Virus record (IMG/VR): IMGVR_UViG_3300046001_006061
Coordinates: 1-64,000 of that record
Strand: one strand, 5' to 3'
Source: a virus
Length of the DNA stretch: 64,000 nt
Positions 16,997 through 58,012 of this stretch are shown piece by piece. The translations under genes were made by a program, and so were the position numbers. Numbering within the stretch: the first letter of the stretch is position 1; every line of letters begins with the position of its first letter. The notes beneath the pieces were generated by a model. That model searched no databases, was not told the origin of the DNA, and worked only from the letters and a program-made list of their open reading frames with translations.

Positions 16997-17227
16997 ATGA
17001 AAGCAGTAAAATTTTTAGCACCAAACCAATGTTATTTTTTTCAAGATAACAAAATAGTATTTCAAAGCTACGAAACTATTATTTGCACTATTGAAAACTA
17101 CGAAAATGGAAACGAACCGATAATAAAAATAACCGATTCGCAGCCACAAAGTAAAACCACAGCAAAATATTTAAATCAATTTTTGCAATTACACACAAGC
17201 TTTAAAAGCTATAAAGATATAAAATAG
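16997..17227 (+). CDS. Hypothetical early protein
   Basis: 76 residues, strand-rich N-terminal half. It has its own A-rich leader of about 100 bases. No recognised domain. Confidence 0.6.
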   Translation: MKAVKFLAPNQCYFFQDNKIVFQSYETIICTIENYENGNEPIIKITDSQPQSKTTAKYLNQFLQLHTSFKSYKDIK

Positions 17228-17259
17228 TGTTAAGGTTTCAAGTCCTTTAAATTGTGAGA

Positions 17260-17278
17260 ACAGCCTTAAAACGGCTGT
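17260..17278 (+). other. Hairpin between early genes
   Basis: ACAGCC / GGCTGT around a 7-base loop, without a T-run. Possibly an mRNA processing or stabilising hairpin rather than a terminator. Confidence 0.35.
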
Positions 17279-17306
17279 AAACAAACAACACAAAATAAAA
17301 ATAATT

Positions 17307-18221
17307 ATGGAAACATTAACAGAAGTATTGAAAAAAAATGATTTGCGTTTTACTATCAATTTGAATGATGATAAAACAAACTGTAAAATTGAAATTAATC
17401 TAAATGATGAATGTAAAAATGGTCATCAAGATTTTAGTATTACTGCTACATTTTGGCAAGTTGGCGAAGTAAGAAGCGACAGAAATATGATTGCGGGCGG
17501 TTGTTGTCATGATGATATTTTAAATATTCGCCCTGACTTACAAATATTTGTTAATTTACATTTATGTGATTGGCAAGGCGTTCCAATGTATGCAGTTGAA
17601 AATGGATTTTATCATTTAAAAGAAGGCTTTAACAATACCAAGCCAAGCGAAGAAAGTTTTAAAACTAAATTTTGCGAATATTACAGATTGACTTTAAAAC
17701 AGTTTGAAATATTAAGCAAGTCAGAAAATAAAACGCATTACGCTATTTTATTAATGGATTTAGGTATTTTAGACCAATGGAAAGAAGAAGCAGACAAGGC
17801 AATTAAAATACTAGAAAATTTATGTAATTGTGTTTTTATCTGTGATAGTGTAAAAAGCCAATTTAATGCACCCGCAGAGGCAGAAATTTACCAATTTAGA
17901 AAGAACTGTGAAGAAGGTTATTATTTGCCACAGAACCAAGAAAAAAGGCGAATAATGAAAATTCGTGCGGCTCGTAGTGCTGAAAAATTTAAAATTAAGC
18001 AAGAAATGGACAAAGCAATTTTAAAAGCTAAAATTGAACACTATGTTAAAAGCGCAGTTTTAAAAGGCGGTTTGTCACTTGATAATTTTATTTATTATTC
18101 TCATAGTTGCGAAGGCGTTTTTAATTGGAAAAATTATGGCAAACAAGTTACCGAAGCCGAATTTAACAAGTTTATGGAAGTTACAAAAATTGAAGGTATT
18201 ACCTTTAAACTAGGCAAATAA
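17307..18221 (+). CDS. Hypothetical protein, largest of the early train
   Basis: 304 residues. The N-terminal ~110 residues are beta-rich with a CC pair (AGGCCHDDI); the middle is helical, Lys/Glu-rich and basic (RRIMKIRAARSAEKFKIKQE), then a short aromatic domain. No known family was recognised. It precedes a hairpin TTACTCC/GGAGTAA near 18238-18272. Confidence 0.7.
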   Translation: METLTEVLKKNDLRFTINLNDDKTNCKIEINLNDECKNGHQDFSITATFWQVGEVRSDRNMIAGGCCHDDILNIRPDLQIFVNLHLCDWQGVPMYAVENGFYHLKEGFNNTKPSEESFKTKFCEYYRLTLKQFEILSKSENKTHYAILLMDLGILDQWKEEADKAIKILENLCNCVFICDSVKSQFNAPAEAEIYQFRKNCEEGYYLPQNQEKRRIMKIRAARSAEKFKIKQEMDKAILKAKIEHYVKSAVLKGGLSLDNFIYYSHSCEGVFNWKNYGKQVTEAEFNKFMEVTKIEGITFKLGK

Positions 18222-21511: not shown

Positions 21512-21733
21512 ATGTACGATTACAAAATGTTAGCAAAGGCAAGCCAAATTTTAAGAGCAACCGACCCAAAGCCATTAATAGGCAGAACAGTTGATGCTTA
21601 CGAAAACGCTACTTCAATTGAGCGACAAATAATGGCGTTTAACGAGAAGAAATATAGTAACGAAATGAAGTTACAAGAAATAAACAAACAAAAGAAAGTC
21701 ACATTGTTTTTAATGCAGCAAAATCCCAAATAA
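21512..21733 (+). CDS. Hypothetical small protein
   Basis: 73 residues, helical, basic C-terminus (NEMKLQEINKQKKVTLFLMQ). Its stop overlaps the next start by one base (TAATG). Confidence 0.55.
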   Translation: MYDYKMLAKASQILRATDPKPLIGRTVDAYENATSIERQIMAFNEKKYSNEMKLQEINKQKKVTLFLMQQNPK

Positions 21734-21912
21734 TGAAAGACCTCGAAAAATTGGTGAAAGAATACCCGCTTCTTACAAGCAATGAGCGCAAATTGCTTAA
21801 AAACATTCTCAACTATCATGGCATTAACAAATCCGATGCTTCAAAAAGAATAGCGCAAGTTTTGAAAATACCACTTCAAGAAAACAAAATACTTTCAATT
21901 TTAACCGCTTAA
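21733..21912 (+). CDS. Hypothetical helical protein, last gene before the cassette array
   Basis: 59 residues. LTSNERKLLKNILNYHGINK then SDASKRIAQVLKIPLQENK suggests a small helix-turn-helix-like protein. It ends 73 bases before the first attC-like site; the stretch between holds the array promoter. Confidence 0.55.
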   Translation: MKDLEKLVKEYPLLTSNERKLLKNILNYHGINKSDASKRIAQVLKIPLQENKILSILTA

Positions 21913-21944
21913 AAATCACATCAATACAACTATTTTATTATTTA

Positions 21945-21977
21945 TTGGTGTCAATTAATAGGGAAAAGTTATATTTG
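21945..21977 (+). promoter_or_regulatory. Promoter reading into the cassette array
   Basis: TTGG (21945-21948), 21 bases, TATATTTG (21970-21977). It lies 8 bases before the R'' end of the first attC-like site, the position a cassette promoter (Pc) would need. The spacer is two bases longer than the phage's best promoters. Confidence 0.5.
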
Positions 21978-21984
21978 TAGGAGA

Positions 21985-22075
21985 AAATAACGGGCGGACG
22001 GTTTGGGCAGGCTGCAAACCTGACCAACTTTCCACCCTAACCAACATCGCAGCTTGCTTAAACCGTATGTTAGAA
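21985..22075 (+). repeat. attC-like site 1
   Basis: R'' AAATAAC (21985-21991) and R' GTTAGAA (22069-22075). Inner arms GGGCAGGCTGC / GCAGCTTGC; the pair ACGGTTT / AAACCGT flanks them. Related to site 8 (both start TAACGGGCGGACG). No cassette whose left end matches this R'' is seen upstream. Confidence 0.7.
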
Positions 22076-22131
22076 GCAGTTAATTAAACCTTGTGCGTGG
22101 GGTTCACGCAAGTAAATTAGAAAATAAAATT

Positions 22132-22458
22132 ATGACATTTATTCATCAGCCAACAGAATTTGAAAAACAAAAAAATGATAAAGATTTTATAGAAAGATTG
22201 AAATCATTTTGTAAAAACCAATTAGAAGAAAAACCAAAAAAAATGAGTAATAAAGATAGAATTGATTATATCTCATTCCTTCATAAGCAAAATTTGAATG
22301 GAAGAGAAGATGAGGATACGCTTTTTGAAGCTGGTATAGAAGCTGGCATAACAGAAACAGAAGAGTTTATGTTAGAATTTATTGTTAGTTTAAATCTTCC
22401 ATTTACTGAAGATGAAATTACGGAAATGTTTAATAAATTTAAAGCAAATGCAGAATAA
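22132..22458 (+). CDS. Cassette A, gene 1: hypothetical acidic protein
   Basis: 108 residues from the first ATG after attC 1. Helical and acidic: EDTLFEAGIEAGITETEEFM, FTEDEITEMFNKFKANAE. No family recognised. The leader between R' and ATG holds a small hairpin, TGCGTG/CACGCA, that is shared word for word with cassette H. Confidence 0.6.
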   Translation: MTFIHQPTEFEKQKNDKDFIERLKSFCKNQLEEKPKKMSNKDRIDYISFLHKQNLNGREDEDTLFEAGIEAGITETEEFMLEFIVSLNLPFTEDEITEMFNKFKANAE

Positions 22459-22729
22459 AACATACAGTGGGATACTAATTAAATATGTTAGAGATAACAA
22501 TATGATTATTTGGAAAATAGAAGAATCACTAGCTGCTTTAAATATTTATGTCGATTGTAAAGATGAAGATAAACTAACCGATTTAGATAATGAACGAAAA
22601 GTATATTTCAAACTCAAAAAAGTATTTATGGGTAGAGAATATGGCGAAGATATGAATATGAATTTAGCATATAACCTAAGTTTTGAAATAAATGTCCAAG
22701 CGCAAAAGGCGGAAGCAAGCAAGGTTTAA
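22448..22729 (+). CDS. Cassette A, gene 2: hypothetical protein
   Basis: 93 residues from the ATG at 22448, overlapping the previous gene by 11 bases. Mixed helix and strand, with no known domain. Its last codons run into a segment (22700-22740) that is also found after the cassette H gene and is complementary to the cassette's left end. Confidence 0.55.
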   Translation: MQNKTYSGILIKYVRDNNMIIWKIEESLAALNIYVDCKDEDKLTDLDNERKVYFKLKKVFMGREYGEDMNMNLAYNLSFEINVQAQKAEASKV

Positions 22730-22738
22730 TTTATTGCT

Positions 22739-22871
22739 TTCTAACGGTATCGGGGCTTGTAGCAGTAGGGGATTTTGAAAAACTACTGCTCAATTAACCA
22801 CCACAGCCCAATAGAAGTAAAAGGCTCAAAACTTGCACTTCTGCCCCTATTGCTACAGACCCTTGTTAGCG
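22739..22871 (+). repeat. attC-like site 2
   Basis: R'' TTCTAAC and R' GTTAGCG (22865-22871). Long arms: GGGGCTTGTAGCAGTAGGGG against CCCCTATTGCTACAGACCC. Same subtype as site 11, including the internal sequence. Confidence 0.75.
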
Positions 22872-22915
22872 GTAGGTTTTTTCAAATCAAGGGTTAATTT
22901 TAAAAGTTACATAAA

Positions 22916-23161
22916 ATGTTCAAAAAGAAAATAACATATTTTGTACTATATTTTTTAGAAGGAAATTCAAATAATAAATATAGTGTTTATATGACATCTA
23001 ATGTAGAAAGTACAAACTCCTCCGAATTTAATTTGCATTTTAATAATCAATGCAAATTAAATTACGAAGAAAATACGGGTTTAAAAACTGATGAAGTGGT
23101 TATCGAAAGCATTCAAATGATTTCTATTCAAGTTTCTTTGTTTGGGTGGCGTATTTTTTAA
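22916..23161 (+). CDS. Cassette B: hypothetical protein
   Basis: 81 residues: ITYFVLYFLEGNSNNKYSVY then polar strands, ending ISIQVSLFGWRIF. Beta-rich, no family recognised. Single gene between attC 2 and attC 3. Confidence 0.55.
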   Translation: MFKKKITYFVLYFLEGNSNNKYSVYMTSNVESTNSSEFNLHFNNQCKLNYEENTGLKTDEVVIESIQMISIQVSLFGWRIF

Positions 23162-23167
23162 ACTTAC

Positions 23168-23300
23168 CGCTAACGTTTTCGGGCTTTGTGTCCGTTGGCG
23201 ACTTAAACTACAAATGTTAAATTGAAAAACAAATATTGATATGAGTACAAAAATTAAATCGAAGAACGAAACCGCCAATGGCACAAAACCCGTGTTAGGC
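23168..23300 (+). repeat. attC-like site 3, with the next start codon in its loop
   Basis: R'' CGCTAAC (23168-23174) and R' GTTAGGC (23294-23300); arms CGGGCTTTGTGTCCGTTGGCG against CGCCAATGGCACAAAACCCG. The ATG at 23241 lies in the variable loop, so the gene reads through the 3' arm and R'. Confidence 0.75.
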
Positions 23301-23534
23301 GAAGTTATTGATAGCAAGGTTAATCAATTGCTGTCTTTAAGTGATGAATTTATATTCCCTGCTTACTATTCACATTCAGGTAAAACAATGTGGAAGATTT
23401 CAAATGTTTATACAAAATACGGTTCTGAAACATTGGTTTTGTGTGGCGTTGATGAAGGTATTGAAACAGCAATTGATTTGGCAATAGAACACATTTCAAA
23501 AGCTAAAGATAAGTTCTATGGTGTCGGTGTATAA
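23241..23534 (+). CDS. Cassette C: hypothetical protein starting inside attC
   Basis: 97 residues. The first ~20 codons (MSTKIKSKNETANGTKPVLG) are encoded by the loop and 3' arm of attC 3; the conserved-looking part follows (FIFPAYYSHSGKTMWKIS, GIETAIDLAIEHISKAK). No domain recognised. The stop lies inside the R'' of attC 4. A start downstream of R' would be Met-50, which would discard half the protein. Confidence 0.55.
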   Translation: MSTKIKSKNETANGTKPVLGEVIDSKVNQLLSLSDEFIFPAYYSHSGKTMWKISNVYTKYGSETLVLCGVDEGIETAIDLAIEHISKAKDKFYGVGV

Positions 23535-23660
23535 CGTTTTGCGGCTTTATGCAGTAGCGGACTTAAACCAAAAAATTTGATATGGAAAACGAAATTATAA
23601 ATACAGATAAAAGTTCATTAGAACCACGAAATCCGCTATTGCTTAAAGCTGATGTTATAA
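23529..23660 (+). repeat. attC-like site 4, with the next start codon in its loop
   Basis: R'' GTATAAC and R' GTTATAA (23654-23660); arms GGCTTTATGCAGTAGCGGA against TCCGCTATTGCTTAAAGCT. The ATG at 23582 lies in the loop. Confidence 0.7.
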
Positions 23661-23893
23661 GCCGTTTTGGTGAATGTAAGTACAGTTGTCAATTAACACA
23701 CGAGCCAAGTTGGTTTCATACAATATTGATTAAAGACTTTAGCATTTATATCGAGGAATGGATGGATGATGAAGATAATGAAATTTGTGCAACAGTTTTT
23801 ACAGGCGAGAAAAAAAATGCTAATGGCTTTGCAAATACCAACTTGGCTTTATTGTTGAATGATATTGAGGAGTTCGTTAAAAATGGCTTATAA
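23582..23893 (+). CDS. Cassette D: hypothetical protein starting inside attC
   Basis: 103 residues. The N-terminal ~26 residues are encoded by the loop and 3' arm of attC 4. The remainder is strand-rich (SWFHTILIKDFSIYIEEWMD, ICATVFTGEKK) with a C-terminal helix. No family recognised. The stop lies inside the next R''. Confidence 0.55.
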   Translation: MENEIINTDKSSLEPRNPLLLKADVISRFGECKYSCQLTHEPSWFHTILIKDFSIYIEEWMDDEDNEICATVFTGEKKNANGFANTNLALLLNDIEEFVKNGL

Positions 23894-23987
23894 CGTTTGG
23901 TGGCTTTGTGTCTGTTTGCCCCTTGCGCAAAGTTTCAAGTTTACCACAAATGTTGATGGGGCAAATAGCACAAAACCGCTGTTATGC
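23887..23987 (+). repeat. attC-like site 5
   Basis: R'' CTTATAAC and R' GTTATGC (23981-23987); arms GGCTTTGTGTCTGTTTGCCCC / GGGGCAAATAGCACAAAACC. The bases between R'' and L'' (GTTTG) are longer than those between L' and R', giving an unpaired spacer typical of attC. Nearly identical inside to site 7. Confidence 0.8.
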
Positions 23988-24022
23988 GTAGTAGCGGATT
24001 ATTAACGATAAATTTAATTAAA

Positions 24023-24490
24023 ATGATGAAACATAAACAAAAACAACCTTACGGATGCGGTTTATATGCCGTTGCAAACGCCTGTAATTTAGACAACTTT
24101 ATTACAGATGAAAGACTTGAAAAAAGTAAAACAGGAAATGTAATAGGGCAACTTTCAAAGTGGATGCAAGAAGATGGACACCCATTTTACATTGATACGC
24201 TTTACTATAACCACGTTGGAAAAAAGTTACCTAAAACGGCATTGGACTATAAACCAAGTGGAGAAGGAATACATTTTTTGCCTGTGCTTATAAATGTAAG
24301 ATTTTCTGATGAAGGGAAAAATCATTTAGTAGGTGGGAAAATTGACAAAGAAGGCAAATTATATTTATACGATAGCCTTAAAGAAGAAATGATTGAAACA
24401 ACGATGAGGCAGGTAAACAGAATGTATCATCACGTTTACGGGTTGTTTTTGTTTATGGGTGTTGATAATGGAGAATATGTCTTTATATAG
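24023..24490 (+). CDS. Cassette E: papain-like cysteine protease candidate
   Basis: 155 residues from the first ATG. QPYGCGLYAVANA (Gln-8, Cys-12), then HLVGGKI (His-101) and LYLYDS (Asp-117) line up as the Gln-Cys-His-Asp set of papain-like peptidases such as the C39 group. The protein is shorter than most full proteases and has no signal peptide. A protease or related amidase/transglutaminase activity is inferred; the motif positions are what is seen. Single gene between attC 5 and 6. Confidence 0.55.
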   Translation: MMKHKQKQPYGCGLYAVANACNLDNFITDERLEKSKTGNVIGQLSKWMQEDGHPFYIDTLYYNHVGKKLPKTALDYKPSGEGIHFLPVLINVRFSDEGKNHLVGGKIDKEGKLYLYDSLKEEMIETTMRQVNRMYHHVYGLFLFMGVDNGEYVFI

Positions 24491-24508
24491 CAGTAACGTA
24501 GCTATTAC

Positions 24509-24602
24509 GCATAACGTTTTGCGTATATGAGAAGTGGCACTTGCAGAATGTTGAAAGTTAGCACGAATGTTTCTGTGCCATTTCTTATATACGCTGTTAT
24601 AA
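24509..24602 (+). repeat. attC-like site 6
   Basis: R'' GCATAAC and R' GTTATAA (24596-24602); arms GCGTATATGAGAAGTGGCAC / GTGCCATTTCTTATATACGC. Same subtype as site 10. Confidence 0.8.
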
Positions 24603-24635
24603 GCAGCCTTTTTATTAACTTAAATTAAAAACAAA

Positions 24636-24908
24636 ATGAGAAACTTTAAAACAAAAATTGAAGGACACGAAGAAGAGTTTGACTTTGAATGTTACGAAAA
24701 TACAGAATCAATAGAAATTGGAGATAAATATATTTTCTTTTTTGGTGGTATTGCAGACGTTCAAGTATGCGACTCTGAAAATGTAAAAGAAGAAGTAAAC
24801 AAACACAATAGACCTTATCAGTACGATAAAATTGATTTAACACACAATTTTTGGACTAAGTGTTTTAAAATTAAAGAAACAAATTTTGACCTTAGTACGG
24901 TTTTATAA
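24636..24908 (+). CDS. Cassette F: hypothetical protein
   Basis: 90 residues, acidic, beta-rich (GDKYIFFFGGIADVQVCDSE), no family recognised. Single gene between attC 6 and 7. Confidence 0.55.
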   Translation: MRNFKTKIEGHEEEFDFECYENTESIEIGDKYIFFFGGIADVQVCDSENVKEEVNKHNRPYQYDKIDLTHNFWTKCFKIKETNFDLSTVL

Positions 24909-24913
24909 GGTTG

Positions 24914-25014
24914 CTTATAACGTTTTGCGGCTTTGTGTCTGTTTGCCCCTTGCACAAAAGTTTCAAGTTACCACAAATGTTGATGGGGCAAATAGCACAA
25001 AACCGCTGTTATAT
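24914..25014 (+). repeat. attC-like site 7
   Basis: R'' CTTATAAC and R' GTTATAT (25008-25014); arms as in site 5 (GGCTTTGTGTCTGTTTGCCCC is shared). Confidence 0.8.
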
Positions 25015-25063
25015 GCCGTTGTGGGTTGTCAAAAGGAATTTTAAAACTTAATAATTAAAAAAT

Positions 25064-25669
25064 ATGTATAAATGTAATATTTGTCCTGCTGAATTTAAAA
25101 CAGAAAAGGGATTATCAAACCACAAATGTAGGTGGATATGTAAAATATGTGGAACTAAACTTACCACACCAAAAGGTTATGATAGGCACTTGCAAAATCA
25201 TAGTAACTCTGAAACAAGAAAAAAAGAACAACAGATAAAGCAGGTTGAAGCACAAAAACAAAAAGATGAAGAATTTGCAATAAAATATCAAAAATTGATT
25301 GATATGGGTTTATTTAATCCATTACATAATTCTGGCGATAGTGTTATTGTTTCTACATATATTGTAACAAAGCCAACTCACGAACAAAGGTTTAATAGAA
25401 TGGTAAGAGTTCGGTATGAAGAGGAAAGAAGGTATGATGTATTTGATTGGATAATAGACAAAGCAATAGAACCAACAATTAACGATTTGTATAGGATTAA
25501 TAATTGTATTGAGTTGAATAAACAATATCCAATTCAATATTTAACAAAGAATTTTAAAGTAATTTCTGAATCCAATATTTTTCAAGATAGAACCAAAGCT
25601 ATTGATGAGGCAACTAATAAAGGTAAACAATATAAAGAGGCTTGTGACTTTGCTTCTATGTGTCGCTAA
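25064..25669 (+). CDS. Cassette G: C2H2-type zinc-finger protein
   Basis: 201 residues. Two adjacent zinc fingers at the N-terminus: C4-C7...H20-C22 (CNICPAEFKTEKGLSNHKC) and C26-C29...H42-H46 (CKICGTKLTTPKGYDRHLQN). A charged coiled-coil-like linker follows, then a ~120-residue domain of unknown type (EQRFNRMVRVRYEEERRYDV). Classical C2H2 fingers are uncommon in phages; DNA binding is inferred. Confidence 0.65.
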   Translation: MYKCNICPAEFKTEKGLSNHKCRWICKICGTKLTTPKGYDRHLQNHSNSETRKKEQQIKQVEAQKQKDEEFAIKYQKLIDMGLFNPLHNSGDSVIVSTYIVTKPTHEQRFNRMVRVRYEEERRYDVFDWIIDKAIEPTINDLYRINNCIELNKQYPIQYLTKNFKVISESNIFQDRTKAIDEATNKGKQYKEACDFASMCR

Positions 25670-25675
25670 CAATGG

Positions 25676-25770
25676 CATATAACGGGCGGACGCTTGCATT
25701 GCAGGTTGCAAAAACAATAATTATTCCTTACAGTAACTTGTCAGCAACTTGCTGCAAGCGTATGTTAGAA
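25676..25770 (+). repeat. attC-like site 8
   Basis: R'' CATATAAC and R' GTTAGAA (25764-25770); arms ACGCTTGCA / TGCAAGCGT and GCAGGTTGC / GCAACTTGC. Related to site 1. Confidence 0.75.
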
Positions 25771-25826
25771 GCAGTAAATTAAACCTTGTGCGTGGGGTTC
25801 ACGCAAGCAAATTAGAAAATAAAATT

Positions 25827-26234
25827 ATGAAATCAACAGAAGAAGAAAAGAAAAAAGAAAAAATAGTTCAATCCGCTTACGGTAATCTTTATGAAAAATA
25901 TAAAATAAACATAAATAAATACAGCGGATTCACAGATACAAAAGAGGAAAAATTAGGATTCTCGCCATTGTCTGATGAAATTGAATATTTGGATTTTACT
26001 TGTAGTAATTTATGGAGACCAATTTCGTTAAAAGGAATAGAAAATAATAATGGGTGGATACGTATTGATAATAAACAATCAATTGAAAAAATAAATTATG
26101 TTGGATGGGCGTTCATACGTGTTTGTCGTGAAAATATTGAAGATATTTATTGTGAATATGTAGCAAATTCAATAGGCTATTTCTATGCTACTCATTACCA
26201 ACCAATAATAAAACCTAAATCACCTCATTTTTAG
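25827..26234 (+). CDS. Cassette H: hypothetical protein
   Basis: 135 residues from the ATG at 25827. Lys/Glu-rich start, then a Trp-containing region (LWRPISLKGIENNNGWIRID). No family recognised. Its 57-base leader and the ~45 bases after the gene are almost identical to those of cassette A although the coding part is unrelated. Confidence 0.55.
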   Translation: MKSTEEEKKKEKIVQSAYGNLYEKYKININKYSGFTDTKEEKLGFSPLSDEIEYLDFTCSNLWRPISLKGIENNNGWIRIDNKQSIEKINYVGWAFIRVCRENIEDIYCEYVANSIGYFYATHYQPIIKPKSPHF

Positions 26235-26272
26235 CGCAAAAGGCGGAAGCAAGCAAGGTTTAATTTATTGCT

Positions 26273-26356
26273 TTCTAACGTTTTCGGGCTTGGCGAAGTG
26301 GCTTTTGTGCGTTGGCTTGTGTGTCGGGAAGCCATTTTGCCAAACCCGTGTTATAC
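26273..26356 (+). repeat. attC-like site 9
   Basis: R'' TTCTAAC and R' GTTATAC (26350-26356); arms CGGGCTTGGCGAAGTGGC / GCCATTTTGCCAAACCCG. Same subtype as site 12. Confidence 0.8.
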
Positions 26357-26413
26357 GCTGGCACGGGTAATTTAGTAGGAACTTAATTTGAAACACAAAT
26401 AAAAATCAAAGCA

Positions 26414-26719
26414 ATGGCAACAGCAATTTATGAAATACCGAACTCCGTAAAGGAAATGTTTGAACAAGGCGAAAATAGTTATCGCATAATTGACTATTCA
26501 ATACAGGAAATGGACAATATCCAAAGTATGCAACATTTCCTTGACTGCATAGGTGCAACAAGCGATAATATTGAAACAGACGATGGAACGCAAGTGGTAA
26601 TTATTCATCCTGACTTTGACCACAAACTTGTAATTGATAGTGGTGGGTTGGGCGATTTTTATTCTCACGGTTATGACGTAACTCTCTATTCGGAGACGGT
26701 CAGTAGTGCTTGCGTATAA
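26414..26719 (+). CDS. Cassette I: hypothetical protein
   Basis: 101 residues, acidic: helix EIPNSVKEMFEQGENSYRII followed by strands (TQVVIIHPDFDHKLVIDSGG). No family recognised. The stop codon is part of the next R''. Confidence 0.55.
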   Translation: MATAIYEIPNSVKEMFEQGENSYRIIDYSIQEMDNIQSMQHFLDCIGATSDNIETDDGTQVVIIHPDFDHKLVIDSGGLGDFYSHGYDVTLYSETVSSACV

Positions 26720-26817
26720 CGTTTTGCGTATATGAGAAGTGGCACTTGTAGAATGTTGAAATTTAGCACAAATGTTTCTGTGCCATTTCTTATATACGCT
26801 GTTACCTGCTGGTGCGG
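26713..26817 (+). repeat. attC-like site 10
   Basis: R'' CGTATAAC and R' GTTACCT (26811-26817); arms as in site 6. Confidence 0.8.
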
Positions 26818-26873
26818 TTAATTTAGTAGAATTTTGATTTGAAAACGAATAGAAAATTTAAAAAGTTTTAGAG

Positions 26874-27119
26874 ATGGAAACACAAAAAATGTATGGAGTA
26901 GAATATAAAACAGATAGCAGTTCTACTTATGAAATATTTGAAAATTACGATGATGCGTTAGCTTTTGCTAATAGTAATGAAAATGCTATGTTTTTATTTA
27001 CAGCAGACTTTAATAAGGACAGAGTTTATTTAGATAGTGAAACTTGGAATTACGATGATTTTACCGACACTTTTATTAACCAAGAAATAATTGAAACTTA
27101 TGAAATATATGGGAAGTAA
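26874..27119 (+). CDS. Cassette J, gene 1: hypothetical protein
   Basis: 81 residues, acidic, Tyr/Asp/Asn-rich (YEIFENYDDALAFANSNENA). Its end overlaps the methyltransferase start by 20 bases. Could be a methyltransferase partner, but no family was recognised. Confidence 0.55.
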   Translation: METQKMYGVEYKTDSSSTYEIFENYDDALAFANSNENAMFLFTADFNKDRVYLDSETWNYDDFTDTFINQEIIETYEIYGK

Positions 27120-27867
27120 GGCGAGATTTAGTAAAGAGATTTTGCCGATAATATTAAAAGACAGAACAGCCGACCAATGGTATGTTGAGCCATTTGCAGG
27201 TGGAATGAACGCAATTTGTGATGTAGATGGCAATAGACTTGCTAATGATAAAAACTACCACTTAATTGAAATGTGGAAAGGATTAACAAATGGCGTTAAA
27301 TACCCAACAGACATACCAAAAGATTTGTATGACCTTGCAAGAGATGTTTATAATGGTAGAGAAACAAGGTTTGAACACAAAATGAATATGGCTGATGATA
27401 TGGTGGGTTGGATTGGTTGGATGGGTTCTGCAAATGGTAGATTTTTTGATGGTGGATATTCTGGTAAATCAAATACCAAAATTGGAACGGTAAGAAATTA
27501 CATTAAGGAAGCAATAAGTAATATTGAAAAGCAATTACCAAAGATGGTAGGTGTTAAATTTGAGAACAAAGATTATACTGAATTGCTATTACCCAATAAC
27601 AGTATTATTTATTGCGACATTCCATATCAAGGAACAAAACAATATTCAACATCAAAAGATTTTAACCATTCAAATTTTTGGAAATGGTGCAGAGAAAAGG
27701 CAAAGCAAGGACATACAATTTTTGTAAGTGAATACGAAGCACCTGCCGACTTTGAATGTGTTTGGCAAAAAGAGGCTAAATCTTCTTTATCGGCAAATGG
27801 TGTAATAGGTGGTAATAAGGTGAGTGTGGAAAAACTTTTTAAATTTTCTCCCACAAATGCTAATTAG
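27100..27867 (+). CDS. Cassette J, gene 2: Dam-type adenine-N6 DNA methyltransferase
   Basis: 255 residues from the ATG at 27100. MKYMGSKARF is motif X, EPFAGGMN (30-37) the SAM-binding motif I, and DIPYQG (173-178) the catalytic DPPY-type motif IV, in the D12/alpha-class order. Ile replaces Pro in the second position of DPPY, a tolerated variant. It methylates adenine in a short DNA target. No restriction enzyme gene is adjacent, so it is an orphan enzyme, plausibly shielding phage DNA. Confidence 0.85.
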   Translation: MKYMGSKARFSKEILPIILKDRTADQWYVEPFAGGMNAICDVDGNRLANDKNYHLIEMWKGLTNGVKYPTDIPKDLYDLARDVYNGRETRFEHKMNMADDMVGWIGWMGSANGRFFDGGYSGKSNTKIGTVRNYIKEAISNIEKQLPKMVGVKFENKDYTELLLPNNSIIYCDIPYQGTKQYSTSKDFNHSNFWKWCREKAKQGHTIFVSEYEAPADFECVWQKEAKSSLSANGVIGGNKVSVEKLFKFSPTNAN

Positions 27868-27888
27868 AAGCACGAATGTAGCACTTGC

Positions 27889-28021
27889 AGGTAACGGTCT
27901 GGGGCTTGTAGCAGAAGGGGAATTTGAAAAACTACTGCGCAATTAACCACCACAGCCTAATAGAAGTAATAAGGCTCAAAACTTCCACTTCTGCCCCTAT
28001 TGCTACAAACCCTTGTTAGCG
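27889..28021 (+). repeat. attC-like site 11
   Basis: R'' AGGTAAC and R' GTTAGCG (28015-28021); arms GGGGCTTGTAGCAGAAGGGG / CCCCTATTGCTACAAACCC. Same subtype as site 2, internal sequence largely shared. Confidence 0.75.
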
Positions 28022-28066
28022 GTTCGGGCTTGTTTTCACAAGGGTATAAATTTTAAATAAATAAAA

Positions 28067-28303
28067 ATGTCAGAGAAAAAAGTATCAGTTACCATTAAGT
28101 GTAAACAAGTAATGCACTTTGCTCAAAGTGTTGAAATGTCCGAAAGTGATTATGAGAAAATCAAAGATTTGGATTTTGAAGATGTCCACGAAATAAGAGA
28201 AAGAGAGCAGTATTCAGTTATTGAAGGATATCTGAATTTTATGGATATTCTTGAAAGCGATGATGAATTTTTAGATGTCCAAATTACCAAAGATGAAGAT
28301 TAG
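28067..28303 (+). CDS. Cassette K: hypothetical acidic protein
   Basis: 78 residues, strongly acidic second half (DFEDVHEIREREQYSVIEGY, LESDDEFLDV). No family recognised. Acidic small proteins in such arrays can be inhibitors, but this is only a guess. Confidence 0.55.
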   Translation: MSEKKVSVTIKCKQVMHFAQSVEMSESDYEKIKDLDFEDVHEIREREQYSVIEGYLNFMDILESDDEFLDVQITKDED

Positions 28304-28324
28304 TAGGGTGTTTTTTAGCCTGAC

Positions 28325-28450
28325 CGCTAACGTTTTCGGGCTTGGCGAAGTGGCTGAACGCGAAGCTAAATAGAATTACAAAACTTTAAAATTAAAAACG
28401 AATGATTGATAGAATTACTGAACAGCCATTTTGCCAAACCCGTGTTAGTG
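28325..28450 (+). repeat. attC-like site 12, with the next start codon in its loop
   Basis: R'' CGCTAAC and R' GTTAGTG (28444-28450); arms CGGGCTTGGCGAAGTGGCTG / CAGCCATTTTGCCAAACCCG. The ATG at 28402 lies in the loop. Confidence 0.75.
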
Positions 28451-29175
28451 GCAGTACTTTTGTGAACGCAGACTGCTTTGATGTTTTTCCTTTTATTGAG
28501 GATAAATCAATTGATGCGATTATTTGCGATTTGCCTTATGGAACTACTGCTTGTAAGTGGGATAGTATCCTGCCATTAGACAAACTTTGGAATGAATACA
28601 AGCGTGTTTTAAAGCCAAACGGTGTTATTTTACTTACTGCTTCGCAACCATTTACAACTGTTTTGATTGGAAATGATTTGAAAATGTTTAAGTATAATTT
28701 AGTTTGGGATAAAGTAGCTGTTACAAATCCGATGTTGGCTAAAAAACAACCTATGAGATGCCACGAAGATGTATTGATTTTTTACGATAAGCAACCAACT
28801 TACAACCCACAAATGAGAGTAGGCGTAAAATGGAGTAGAGCAGGAAAAAAACAACATACAACAGATACTTTAGGGCAAAGCACGTTGTTTAATAATGGAA
28901 GCGATGAAAGTGAAATGAAATACCCTAAAAGTATTATCACATTTTCAAATGCTGACAAAACAAAAAACGAACATCCAACTCAAAAACCGATTGACTTAAT
29001 GGAATGGTTGATTAAAACATATACAAACGAAGGCGATATGGTATTAGACAATACAATGGGTTCAGGAACAACAAACTTGGCTTGTATTAAATTAAATCGC
29101 AAATCAATTGGAATAGAAAAGGAAAAACAATATTACGATGTTGCTGTTCGGAGGGCTTCGGAGTATTGCCACTAA
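28402..29175 (+). CDS. Cassette L: beta-class DNA methyltransferase
   Basis: 257 residues. Catalytic DLPY (43-46) comes first, then HPTQKP (191-196) and the SAM motif DNTMGSGTT (216-224), the beta-class order of N4-cytosine or N6-adenine methyltransferases. No nuclease gene is near, so it is an orphan. The first ~15 residues (MIDRITEQPFCQTRVS) are encoded by attC 12; an alternative GTG start just after R' (28461-28463) would give a protein nearer the usual N-terminus. The stop is inside the terminal R''. Confidence 0.85.
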   Translation: MIDRITEQPFCQTRVSGSTFVNADCFDVFPFIEDKSIDAIICDLPYGTTACKWDSILPLDKLWNEYKRVLKPNGVILLTASQPFTTVLIGNDLKMFKYNLVWDKVAVTNPMLAKKQPMRCHEDVLIFYDKQPTYNPQMRVGVKWSRAGKKQHTTDTLGQSTLFNNGSDESEMKYPKSIITFSNADKTKNEHPTQKPIDLMEWLIKTYTNEGDMVLDNTMGSGTTNLACIKLNRKSIGIEKEKQYYDVAVRRASEYCH

Positions 29176-29176
29176 C
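29169..29176 (+). repeat. attC remnant at the right end of the array
   Basis: CCACTAAC is complementary to the left end of cassette L (GTTAGTGG, 28444-28451), as expected for its R''. No L', L'' or R' partner follows, so the site seems truncated. Confidence 0.55.
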
Positions 29177-29196
29177 TATGTGATTGGCGCAACAAC

Positions 29197-29487
29197 ATGG
29201 TAATACAATCAATGATAACTAACATTTCAGCTATACCAACAGAAAGAATAATGAGTTGTGATTTTGTAATTATAACTCATTATTTACCGAACACAGATTA
29301 TGTTTTTAGTGGCAATGAGGTTTACAAGAAAATAAACAGTAACCTAAAACCAGTATCAACTTATATGAGTGGTAGATGTAAGGTCGCTAAGATAAATACT
29401 AAGCCAAAAAGTTTAACATGGCTAAAAGCAAATAGAAAAAGCAAAATAGAAACTTTTATAAAAAACGTACAAATATTACCTTTTTAA
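29197..29487 (+). CDS. Hypothetical protein after the array
   Basis: 96 residues with a basic C-terminus (KPKSLTWLKANRKSKIETFI). No family recognised. First gene of the phage backbone beyond the array. Confidence 0.5.
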   Translation: MVIQSMITNISAIPTERIMSCDFVIITHYLPNTDYVFSGNEVYKKINSNLKPVSTYMSGRCKVAKINTKPKSLTWLKANRKSKIETFIKNVQILPF

Positions 29488-30895: not shown

Positions 30896-31807
30896 ATGGA
30901 AAACGAAGAAATTCAAATTATTGATGCTGGAATTTACGAACAGCAAGACAGAGCAATCTTTGATGTGCAAATTGTTACGGCTAAAAAATATCCCCGTAAT
31001 ATTATGAGAGCAACCTCAAATGCTATTGCAATTGTTACTATGGACATGGAAACAGCAAAAGTATGTACCTATTCAGTTCCTAGAGGTGGAAAGTCAATTA
31101 CAGGACCTTCTGTGCATTTAGCTAAAATCTTATTGCAGCAATGGGGAAACTTGCGAGTAGAAGCAAAAGTTGTAGAAACAACCGATAGACAGTTGACAAG
31201 CGAAGCAGTTTGCTTTGACCTAGAAACTAACATTGCAGTTAAGGTTCAAGTTAAGCGTTCTATTATGACTAGAAGTGGTAGAATGACAGACGACATGATT
31301 ACTGTTACGGGTAATGCTGCAAATTCAATAGCTTTAAGAAATGCTGTTTATAATGTAATCCCTAGAGGTGTTGTTGATAAAGTTTACGATTCAGCAAAGA
31401 AAATGATTACGGGAGATTTATCAAGTGAAACAAAATTAATTGCCAAGCGTAAGCAAGTTGTAGATGCCCTAAGAGATACTTACAACATAACCGAAGAAGA
31501 AGTATTAAAAGCAGTTGGGAAGGCAGCACAATCGCAATTAACAACAGACGATATTATTACCTTAATCGGTATCGGGACAGCAATTAAAGACGGTGATACA
31601 ACAGTAGATTTTGCTTTTAGAAACTTGAAAGGAAGTGTTATCGAAAACCCAACACCAACTAATCACGAAGAAGACCGAGTAAAATTGATGTTAAGTGACT
31701 GCAAAACCGCTAAAGAAGTTGACGAATTAGCTAAGAACAACCCCGAAATTAGCCAAGAACTTGTAATTGCAAGAAAAGACGAATTAAAACAAGGGAAACT
31801 ATTGTAA
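30896..31807 (+). CDS. Probable single-strand annealing protein
   Basis: 303 residues. The middle (GKSITGPSVHLAKILLQQWG, LRVEAKVVETTDRQLTSEAV, AVCFDLET) resembles the central part of phage ssDNA-annealing recombinases, and the gene overlaps the next one, a PDDEXK exonuclease, by one base. An annealing protein next to an exonuclease is the lambda Red / RecET arrangement. The exact family (RecT, Erf, Sak or other) is not resolved. Confidence 0.55.
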   Translation: MENEEIQIIDAGIYEQQDRAIFDVQIVTAKKYPRNIMRATSNAIAIVTMDMETAKVCTYSVPRGGKSITGPSVHLAKILLQQWGNLRVEAKVVETTDRQLTSEAVCFDLETNIAVKVQVKRSIMTRSGRMTDDMITVTGNAANSIALRNAVYNVIPRGVVDKVYDSAKKMITGDLSSETKLIAKRKQVVDALRDTYNITEEEVLKAVGKAAQSQLTTDDIITLIGIGTAIKDGDTTVDFAFRNLKGSVIENPTPTNHEEDRVKLMLSDCKTAKEVDELAKNNPEISQELVIARKDELKQGKLL

Positions 31808-57888: not shown

Positions 57889-58012
57889 AGCTAACAGCAC
57901 CCTTGCGAAAATTTGCTACCTCTCGGAACTACTGCTCCTATTGGCTTTTTTCTGCGTTGACAACTTCGTGTTCCAATACCGCAAACTATCGCAAGGCTGC
58001 GAAACGTTATTG
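57889..58012 (+). repeat. attC-like site of the solitary cassette
   Basis: R'' AGCTAAC (57889-57895) and R' GTTATTG (58006-58012). Arms CCTTGCGAAAATTTGC / GCAAACTATCGCAAGG, with CAGC/GCTG outside. The R' is not complementary to the R'', as expected when the R' half comes from the target. Confidence 0.7.

Follow-up and report, generated by a model that had tools for sequence, protein, structure and literature searches.

Integrons, familiar from class 1 elements and from the chromosomes of Vibrio and Shewanella, combine an integrase (IntI), an attI integration site and cassettes with attC recombination sites. Their parts are also known from phages. According to Qi et al. (2023, PMC9892861), 17 clusters of attC sites lacking integron integrases (CALINs) occur in phages, and recombination of several phage attC sites by IntI1 was shown. 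Those clusters, including one in Polaribacter phage P12002L, resemble the locus described here in their attC-type sites and methyltransferase cassettes. They differ in being explained there as incorporated parts of bacterial integrons, and the accessible portion of the paper describes no dedicated recombinase, no reversed unit and no turnover among isolates.

Here we analyze a cassette array at positions 21985-29176 of a 64,000-base stretch of viral DNA (the window), which comprises bases 1-64000 of the 66,927-base IMG/VR virus record IMGVR_UViG_3300046001_006061. This locus is very probably an integron-like cassette array of reversed polarity in a Bacteroidota phage, whose hairpin units would be cut at AAC| (the bar marks the junction) by a recombinase related to Xer and IntI. 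Like integrons, arrays of this type have RYYYAAC and GTTRRRY cores with imperfect inner arms, all seen in the window sites, one-gene cassettes in one orientation, complementary unit ends and an integration end beside the recombinase. Unlike in integrons, the genes of almost every phage unit face the opposite way with respect to the sites and are read toward the integration end, any promoter seen is at the far end, and the phage recombinase lacks the IntI-specific domain. In gene sense, the integron order of a gene followed by its own attC, with cleavage at R' (G|TTRRRY), is not what we find. The locus likewise has no Pc promoter reading into the array from an integrase end, because the genes run toward the integration end and the window's promoter lies opposite. 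Since two defining integron properties, IntI and the gene-attC order, are thus missing, we call it an integron-like system of reversed polarity and not an integron. With at least two close attC sites and no integron integrase, the window formally counts as a CALIN, a label that is silent on polarity and on the enzyme.

A preliminary description of this DNA, made from the sequence alone, had proposed an integron-type array in a phage as something unusual. As stated, that novelty does not hold, given that phage attC clusters, one of them in a Polaribacter phage with methyltransferases, had been described in 2023 (PMC9892861). The apparent novelty lies in the reversed polarity, in a recombinase dedicated to such arrays and in cassette turnover that is recorded directly; the open-access literature, as distinct from subscription papers and preprints, yielded nothing further on reversed cassettes, phage cassette recombinases other than IntI, or hypervariable phage cassette arrays.

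Hairpin sites, polarity and the mobile unit

Twelve attC-like hairpins lie on the plus strand between 21985 and 28450, all where the preliminary description had placed them: sites 1 to 6 at 21985-22075, 22739-22871, 23168-23300, 23529-23660, 23888-23987 and 24509-24602, and sites 7 to 12 at 24915-25014, 25677-25770, 26273-26356, 26714-26807, 27889-28021 and 28325-28450. A structure-based scan recovered 12 of 12 at a score of at least 12 with at least 4 of 7 R-box matches, a threshold at which dinucleotide shuffles of the whole window give about 1.0 chance site on both strands together. A covariance model whose 41 training sites all came from other phages matched exactly these 12 on the plus strand (E values from 1.6e-12 to 1.1e-3). 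Below them come three weak minus-strand matches, two of which mirror sites 6 and 10 (E = 0.03-0.09); the third has E = 0.094. Rfam gave no match at the array. In the training alignment, 14 of the 16 pairs in the inner arms have bases changed on either side. Covariation scores 0.57, compared with 0.15 after shuffling and at most 0.135 for slid pairings, and cells changed on both sides of a pair number 169, against 53 in shuffles.

The left end of a cassette is complementary to its own R'' in 11 of the 12 window units, as first described. Such mutually complementary ends are those seen after the integration of circles. Across 341 phage units, pairing between a unit's own ends extends over about 15 bases; positions 4-7 are paired with the unit's own R'' in 272 units (22 when shuffled), and positions 4-10 are all paired in 163 (2.6 when shuffled). 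A near-invariant mispair, G opposite T on the gene-sense strand, stands at position 11 from each unit end in 273 of the 341 phage units; a G/T mispair is likewise found there in 38 of 46 bacterial units.

The polarity of the sites can be read from their cores. RYYYAAC is followed by G in 214 of 218 phage sites, and GTTRRRY is preceded by T in 216 of 218. A canonical integron used as control, that of Shewanella phage M16-3, reads AACA..CGTT in gene sense, the mirror image of the phage form AACG..TGTT. When sites are read as AACG..TGTT, the genes are in sense in 11/11 window units, in 180/183 and 194/202 viral-contig units and in 20/20 isolate units, but antisense in 37/46 units from bacterial genomes and in all four scorable units of the control. 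The phage sites are therefore canonical sites with inverted genes.

Inheritance indicates which hairpin travels with which gene. Where homologous genes occur in different arrays, 14 of the 17 informative pairs have retained the upstream hairpin and none the downstream one; an earlier run on fewer loci, with four informative pairs, had the same outcome. Within the window, units 1 and 8 share the upstream hairpin arm, leader and tail, and their downstream hairpins are not shared. The homologue of unit 10 in another array (L084) also retains its upstream hairpin. Furthermore, 124 of 394 units have a main reading frame that begins within the hairpin and runs across R'. Three of these are in the window, where the start codons of the following genes lie in sites 3, 4 and 12. 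At the array's edges, no gene lies ahead of the first hairpin, and the last cassette (28444-29176) ends in a terminal R'' followed by no hairpin. Taken with the junctions in relatives described below, co-inheritance of the upstream hairpin and the start codons in hairpins indicate that the mobile unit is a hairpin, R', the downstream gene and R'', apparently cut at AAC|. The preliminary description had each gene followed by its own attC, folded from the bottom strand; the base signature, gene direction, hairpin co-inheritance and junctions all contradict that orientation.

The arm mispair that is by far the most frequent in 466 phage sites sets G against T on the gene-sense strand (658 cells); there it forms a wobble, and the complementary strand has a C-A mismatch in its place. 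Considered alongside the inverted polarity, this mispair suggests folding and cleavage of the gene-sense strand, which would then be the counterpart of the canonical bottom strand.

Turnover among relatives and isolates

The window carries phage-type genes for a terminase large subunit, a tail-collar protein and an anti-repressor. We treat the virus as a presumptive Bacteroidota phage, because the terminases nearest to its own are those of Flavobacterium and Cellulophaga phages (27-30% identity). A search through this terminase led to two close relatives, G001 and G002. The gene at 30896-31804 was dropped as a backbone marker, being a mobile gene common to unrelated phages.

Both relatives hold other units at the window's locus. 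On the left, the backbone of G001 is common with the window (21721-21992, 90%) up to the boundary AAATAAC| (21985..21991, plus strand), the phage-backbone half of the insertion site, and the hairpins beyond differ. On the right, the backbone after AAC| is common to all three; the boundary here is an attI-like end (29177..29248, plus strand), AAC|TATGTGATTGGCGCAACAACATGG in the window and AAC|TCGTAGATTGGCGAAACAACATGG in the relatives. G002 has one unit more than G001, at AAC|TCGTAG. The first hairpin was considered as a resident anchor attC and rejected, since it differs between the window and G001 although the backbone does not.

Turnover is also recorded in Polaribacter phages Freya_1 to Freya_10 (MT732463-MT732472), isolated in 2018 on one host (PMC8776804), of which we compared seven. 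Freya_1 has no cassettes at all, only an empty site, TTTACAAC|ACCCC.., and then the recombinase gene; the empty site lies about 50 bases ahead of the integrase start, so that an attI-like end stands beside a recombinase. Freya_2, Freya_5 and Freya_9 contain nested parts of the array seen in Freya_10, an internal stretch (a unit) is missing from Freya_8, and Freya_6 has an additional stretch of about 470 bases found in none of the other Freya genomes compared. All array junctions are at AAC|, and backbone identity to Freya_10 is 100% in Freya_1, Freya_8 and Freya_9 and 99.99% in Freya_2, Freya_5 and Freya_6. These isolates, empty site included, amount to a natural experiment on cassette gain and loss. 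Whole-unit differences with identical boundaries also separate the Flavobacterium phages tooticki and filifjonk (Muminvirus), neither of which has this kind of recombinase.

Cassette gain and loss, which the preliminary description had proposed to look for in related phages, is seen among relatives and among isolates. The cassette array is real and of an active type. What stands of the earlier proposal is its anatomy, that of a true cassette array in a phage, moved by site-specific recombination; its orientation was wrong, and the implied IntI-type enzyme does not fit the recombinases described next. Phages can accordingly be seen as active users of a cassette-exchange machine and not as accidental carriers of integron pieces.

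The linked recombinase and its bacterial relatives

Arrays of this type are usually accompanied at their right end by a short tyrosine recombinase of 265-280 amino acids, whose gene lies directly 3' of the array in several viral contigs. In 80 viral contigs with relatives of this enzyme, 277 sites lie upstream on the recombinase strand (293 kb), against 47 in all other flanks. Comparison bacterial tyrosine recombinases have almost no array sites nearby.

The first four phage recombinases examined match XerA best (167-198 bits) and score 142-165 bits against the IntI cut-off of 265. In the linked phage recombinases the catalytic residues are complete, with a K-to-H spacing of 58-68 residues compared with 104-105 in IntI; plasmid R100 served solely as the source of an IntI1 sequence. 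A predicted structure (mean predicted local distance difference test score, pLDDT, 89.7) has XerA (5hxy) as its nearest fold and then an integron integrase (2a3v). In trees, with the enzyme of phage Leef as the exception, the phage recombinases group on a single branch that is separate from IntI. Xer recombinases (XerA, XerC and XerD; NF040815) are hence the closest known proteins in sequence and fold. The phage enzyme differs from them in being shorter, phage-borne and tied to hairpin arrays instead of dif sites.

All ten Freya phages carry this recombinase, annotated as an integrase and taken as a sign of a temperate lifestyle (PMC8776804). Its position beside a variable array suggests that it may be a cassette recombinase instead. 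In one viral contig (L231, reverse strand), the hairpin loop of the last unit before the recombinase seems to enclose an entire 69-residue gene, followed by a gene-less stretch.

Searches of the window phage's 66.9-kb record with IntI and Phage_integrase models found no tyrosine recombinase. The integron-type enzyme assumed in the preliminary description is therefore absent from this record, and the linked phage enzymes lack the extra domain specific to IntI. Beyond the array, the window's right end (AAC|TATGTGATTGGCG..) is followed by neither a hairpin nor a recombinase gene, and it has the form of the integration end of other phages. From an attI-like end without a recombinase gene in the record, we infer that the enzyme is probably supplied in trans.

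The explanation we favor can be set out as follows. Each unit consists of a hairpin, the R' core (TGTTRRRY), a gene reading away from the hairpin and the R'' core (RYYYAAC). A tyrosine recombinase would cut the gene-sense strand at AAC|, the excised circle would rejoin R' and R'' of one unit, and units would be gained or lost at other AAC| ends, including the attI-like end to the right of the array. The likeliest enzyme is the compact recombinase related to Xer and IntI but devoid of the IntI domain, which in related phages is the last gene, 3' of the array; in the window phage it would have to act in trans, from a co-infecting phage or the host. The genes would be read from a promoter at the opposite, left end.

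Close relatives of the phage recombinase are common in Flavobacterium, occurring in 86 of 150 genomes. The usual bacterial form has about 347 residues and a K-to-H spacing of 63-64 residues (25 best). The enzyme could be resolved in ten longer Flavobacterium stretches: eight of them contain between 1 and 18 sites downstream of it, another contains no site, and the tenth, whose enzyme has 276 residues, contains two sites upstream; gene orientation in the Flavobacterium arrays is mostly canonical. In four of these chromosomes (L362, L363, L367 and L370), 9-18 attC sites form an array downstream of a recombinase that has about 347-356 amino acids and no IntI domain; these arrays possibly represent unrecognized chromosomal integrons of Bacteroidota. 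They share with the phage arrays the hairpin consensus and a related recombinase lacking the IntI domain, and differ in about 70 extra N-terminal amino acids, an array downstream of the recombinase and canonical genes.

A survey with IntegronFinder 2 found complete integrons to be nearly absent from Bacteroidetes (PMC9024848). Our comparisons point to a wider lineage of recombinases and arrays that may be missed by such means: with a relative in 86/150 genomes and downstream sites at 8/10 resolved loci, standard integron searches that require the IntI domain can overlook an apparently widespread lineage. A Bacteroidia genome (KatS3mg027, locus L212 of G011) encodes a true IntI (443 bits, K-to-H spacing of 105 residues) with an in-frame TGA, and also has array sites.

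We think it likely that Bacteroidota and their phages hold a second integron-like lineage with Xer-related recombinases that lack the IntI domain. Its phage branch would have its genes turned and read from phage promoters toward the integration end, and would offer a shared, exchangeable anti-restriction store that phages without the enzyme could use in trans.

Competing explanations, cargo and map of the locus

Three other explanations deserve weighing. An unlikely one holds that the array-side recombinase is an ordinary lysogeny integrase whose position is incidental, with host enzymes moving the cassettes. The annotation of the Freya gene and its reading as a temperate sign (PMC8776804) would fit this, as would the variation of arrays without a recombinase. 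Yet the concentration of sites upstream on the recombinase strand relative to all other flanks is hard to square with an incidental position, related Flavobacterium chromosomal recombinases likewise adjoin attC arrays, and unrelated bacterial tyrosine recombinases have almost no sites. Slightly less probable still is a conventional CALIN that was acquired from the chromosomal integron of a bacterium and is rearranged by a host IntI, each gene preceding its own attC. The R and L boxes and the pairing of cassette ends are indeed those of attC, the hairpin consensus is common to bacterial arrays, and IntI1 can recombine attC sites carried by phages (PMC9892861). Against such a capture, phage units almost always show a polarity inverted relative to their genes, in contrast to the mostly canonical bacterial arrays, the junctions in relatives and isolates fall at R'' and not at R', and a gene is inherited together with its upstream hairpin. 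We consider it very improbable that the hairpins are terminators or RNA-processing elements, with homologous recombination between repeats swapping the modules. Near-identical hairpin repeats do occur and could serve as substrates, and start codons within hairpins suggest a role in expression; but junctions are always at AAC|, with merely about 3-8 shared bases where the backbone matches, the ends of one unit pair over about 15 bases, which is of use only to a circle, and a conserved core with its mispairs persists across divergent sequences.

Several observations weigh against a reversed-polarity array served by the linked recombinase. The case rests on genome comparison, with recombination itself read from junctions. 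No recombinase is encoded in the records examined for the window phage and for its two closest relatives. Host chromosomal homologues and true IntI are further candidates for the enzyme of the window array, as IntI1 recombines some of the attC sites found in phages (PMC9892861). The recombinase of phage Leef falls outside the phage branch, on a very long branch. The viral contigs are mostly metagenomic, and 8 of 37 match the one terminase family tested (PF03237, too narrow as a phage marker). One window unit breaks the pairing rule (left end 23294 against R'' 23532, unit 3), and the array promoter is rare elsewhere, being found at 1 of 37 other array starts.

The cargo of the window comprises an N6_N4 methyltransferase, a D12 methyltransferase, a C2H2 zinc-finger protein and small proteins without assigned function. 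About 20 of 120 cassette proteins from other arrays match DNA-methyltransferase families; these 120 include N6_N4 methyltransferases (16), C5 methyltransferases (3), Dam, D12 and Mom, as well as a TET-associated glycosyltransferase and RNA ligases. PADLOC matches of cassette proteins are mostly methyltransferases, and PHROGs provided almost no names for those tried. The cargo, methyltransferases first, may best be read as an exchangeable kit against host restriction.

A candidate array promoter of the Bacteroidota type, TTG-N17-23-TATATTTG, lies at 21951..21984 on the plus strand, just 5' of the array, and the flank that holds it is conserved in G001. The motif is present ahead of the array and ahead of a 13th site (background 0.6%). 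As a general feature of such arrays it was rejected, given its scarcity at other array starts.

From left to right, all on the plus strand, unit 1 (21992..22745) holds hairpin 1, open reading frames (ORFs) at 22132-22458 and 22412-22729 and R'', with a tail and leader that recur in unit 8. Unit 2 (22746..23174) consists of the hairpin at 22739-22871 and an ORF at 22916-23161. The start codon lies within the hairpin both in unit 3 (23175..23535; hairpin 23168-23300, ORF 23241-23534), the sole unit whose ends fail to pair, and in unit 4 (23536..23894; hairpin 23529-23660, ORF 23582-23893). Unit 5 (23895..24515) has its hairpin at 23888-23987 and its ORF at 24023-24490, and unit 6 (24516..24921) at 24509-24602 and 24636-24908. 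The zinc-finger protein is encoded in unit 7 (24922..25683; hairpin 24915-25014, ORF 25064-25669); C2H2 zinc fingers are unexpected in a phage cassette. Unit 8 (25684..26279) combines the hairpin at 25677-25770 with an ORF at 25827-26234 (phrog_27445), and unit 9 (26280..26720) the hairpin at 26273-26356 with an ORF at 26414-26719. Unit 10 (26721..27895) carries, after its hairpin (26714-26807), an ORF at 26874-27119 and the D12-class adenine methyltransferase gene at 27100-27867. Unit 11 (27896..28331) has a hairpin at 27889-28021 and an ORF at 28067-28303. In unit 12 (28332..29176), the N6_N4 DNA methyltransferase gene (28402-29175) again starts within its hairpin (28325-28450).

The 13th hairpin, solitary and of the same type, lies at 57889-58012 on the minus strand, directly after a promoter TTG-N19-TACATTTG. 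It is followed by a small ORF of about 38 codons, and no R'' end was found for its unit. Away from the array, a type-P3 twister ribozyme that scores 55.1 bits (gathering score 39.9) is located at 17225-17293 on the plus strand, just 5' of an ORF at 17307.

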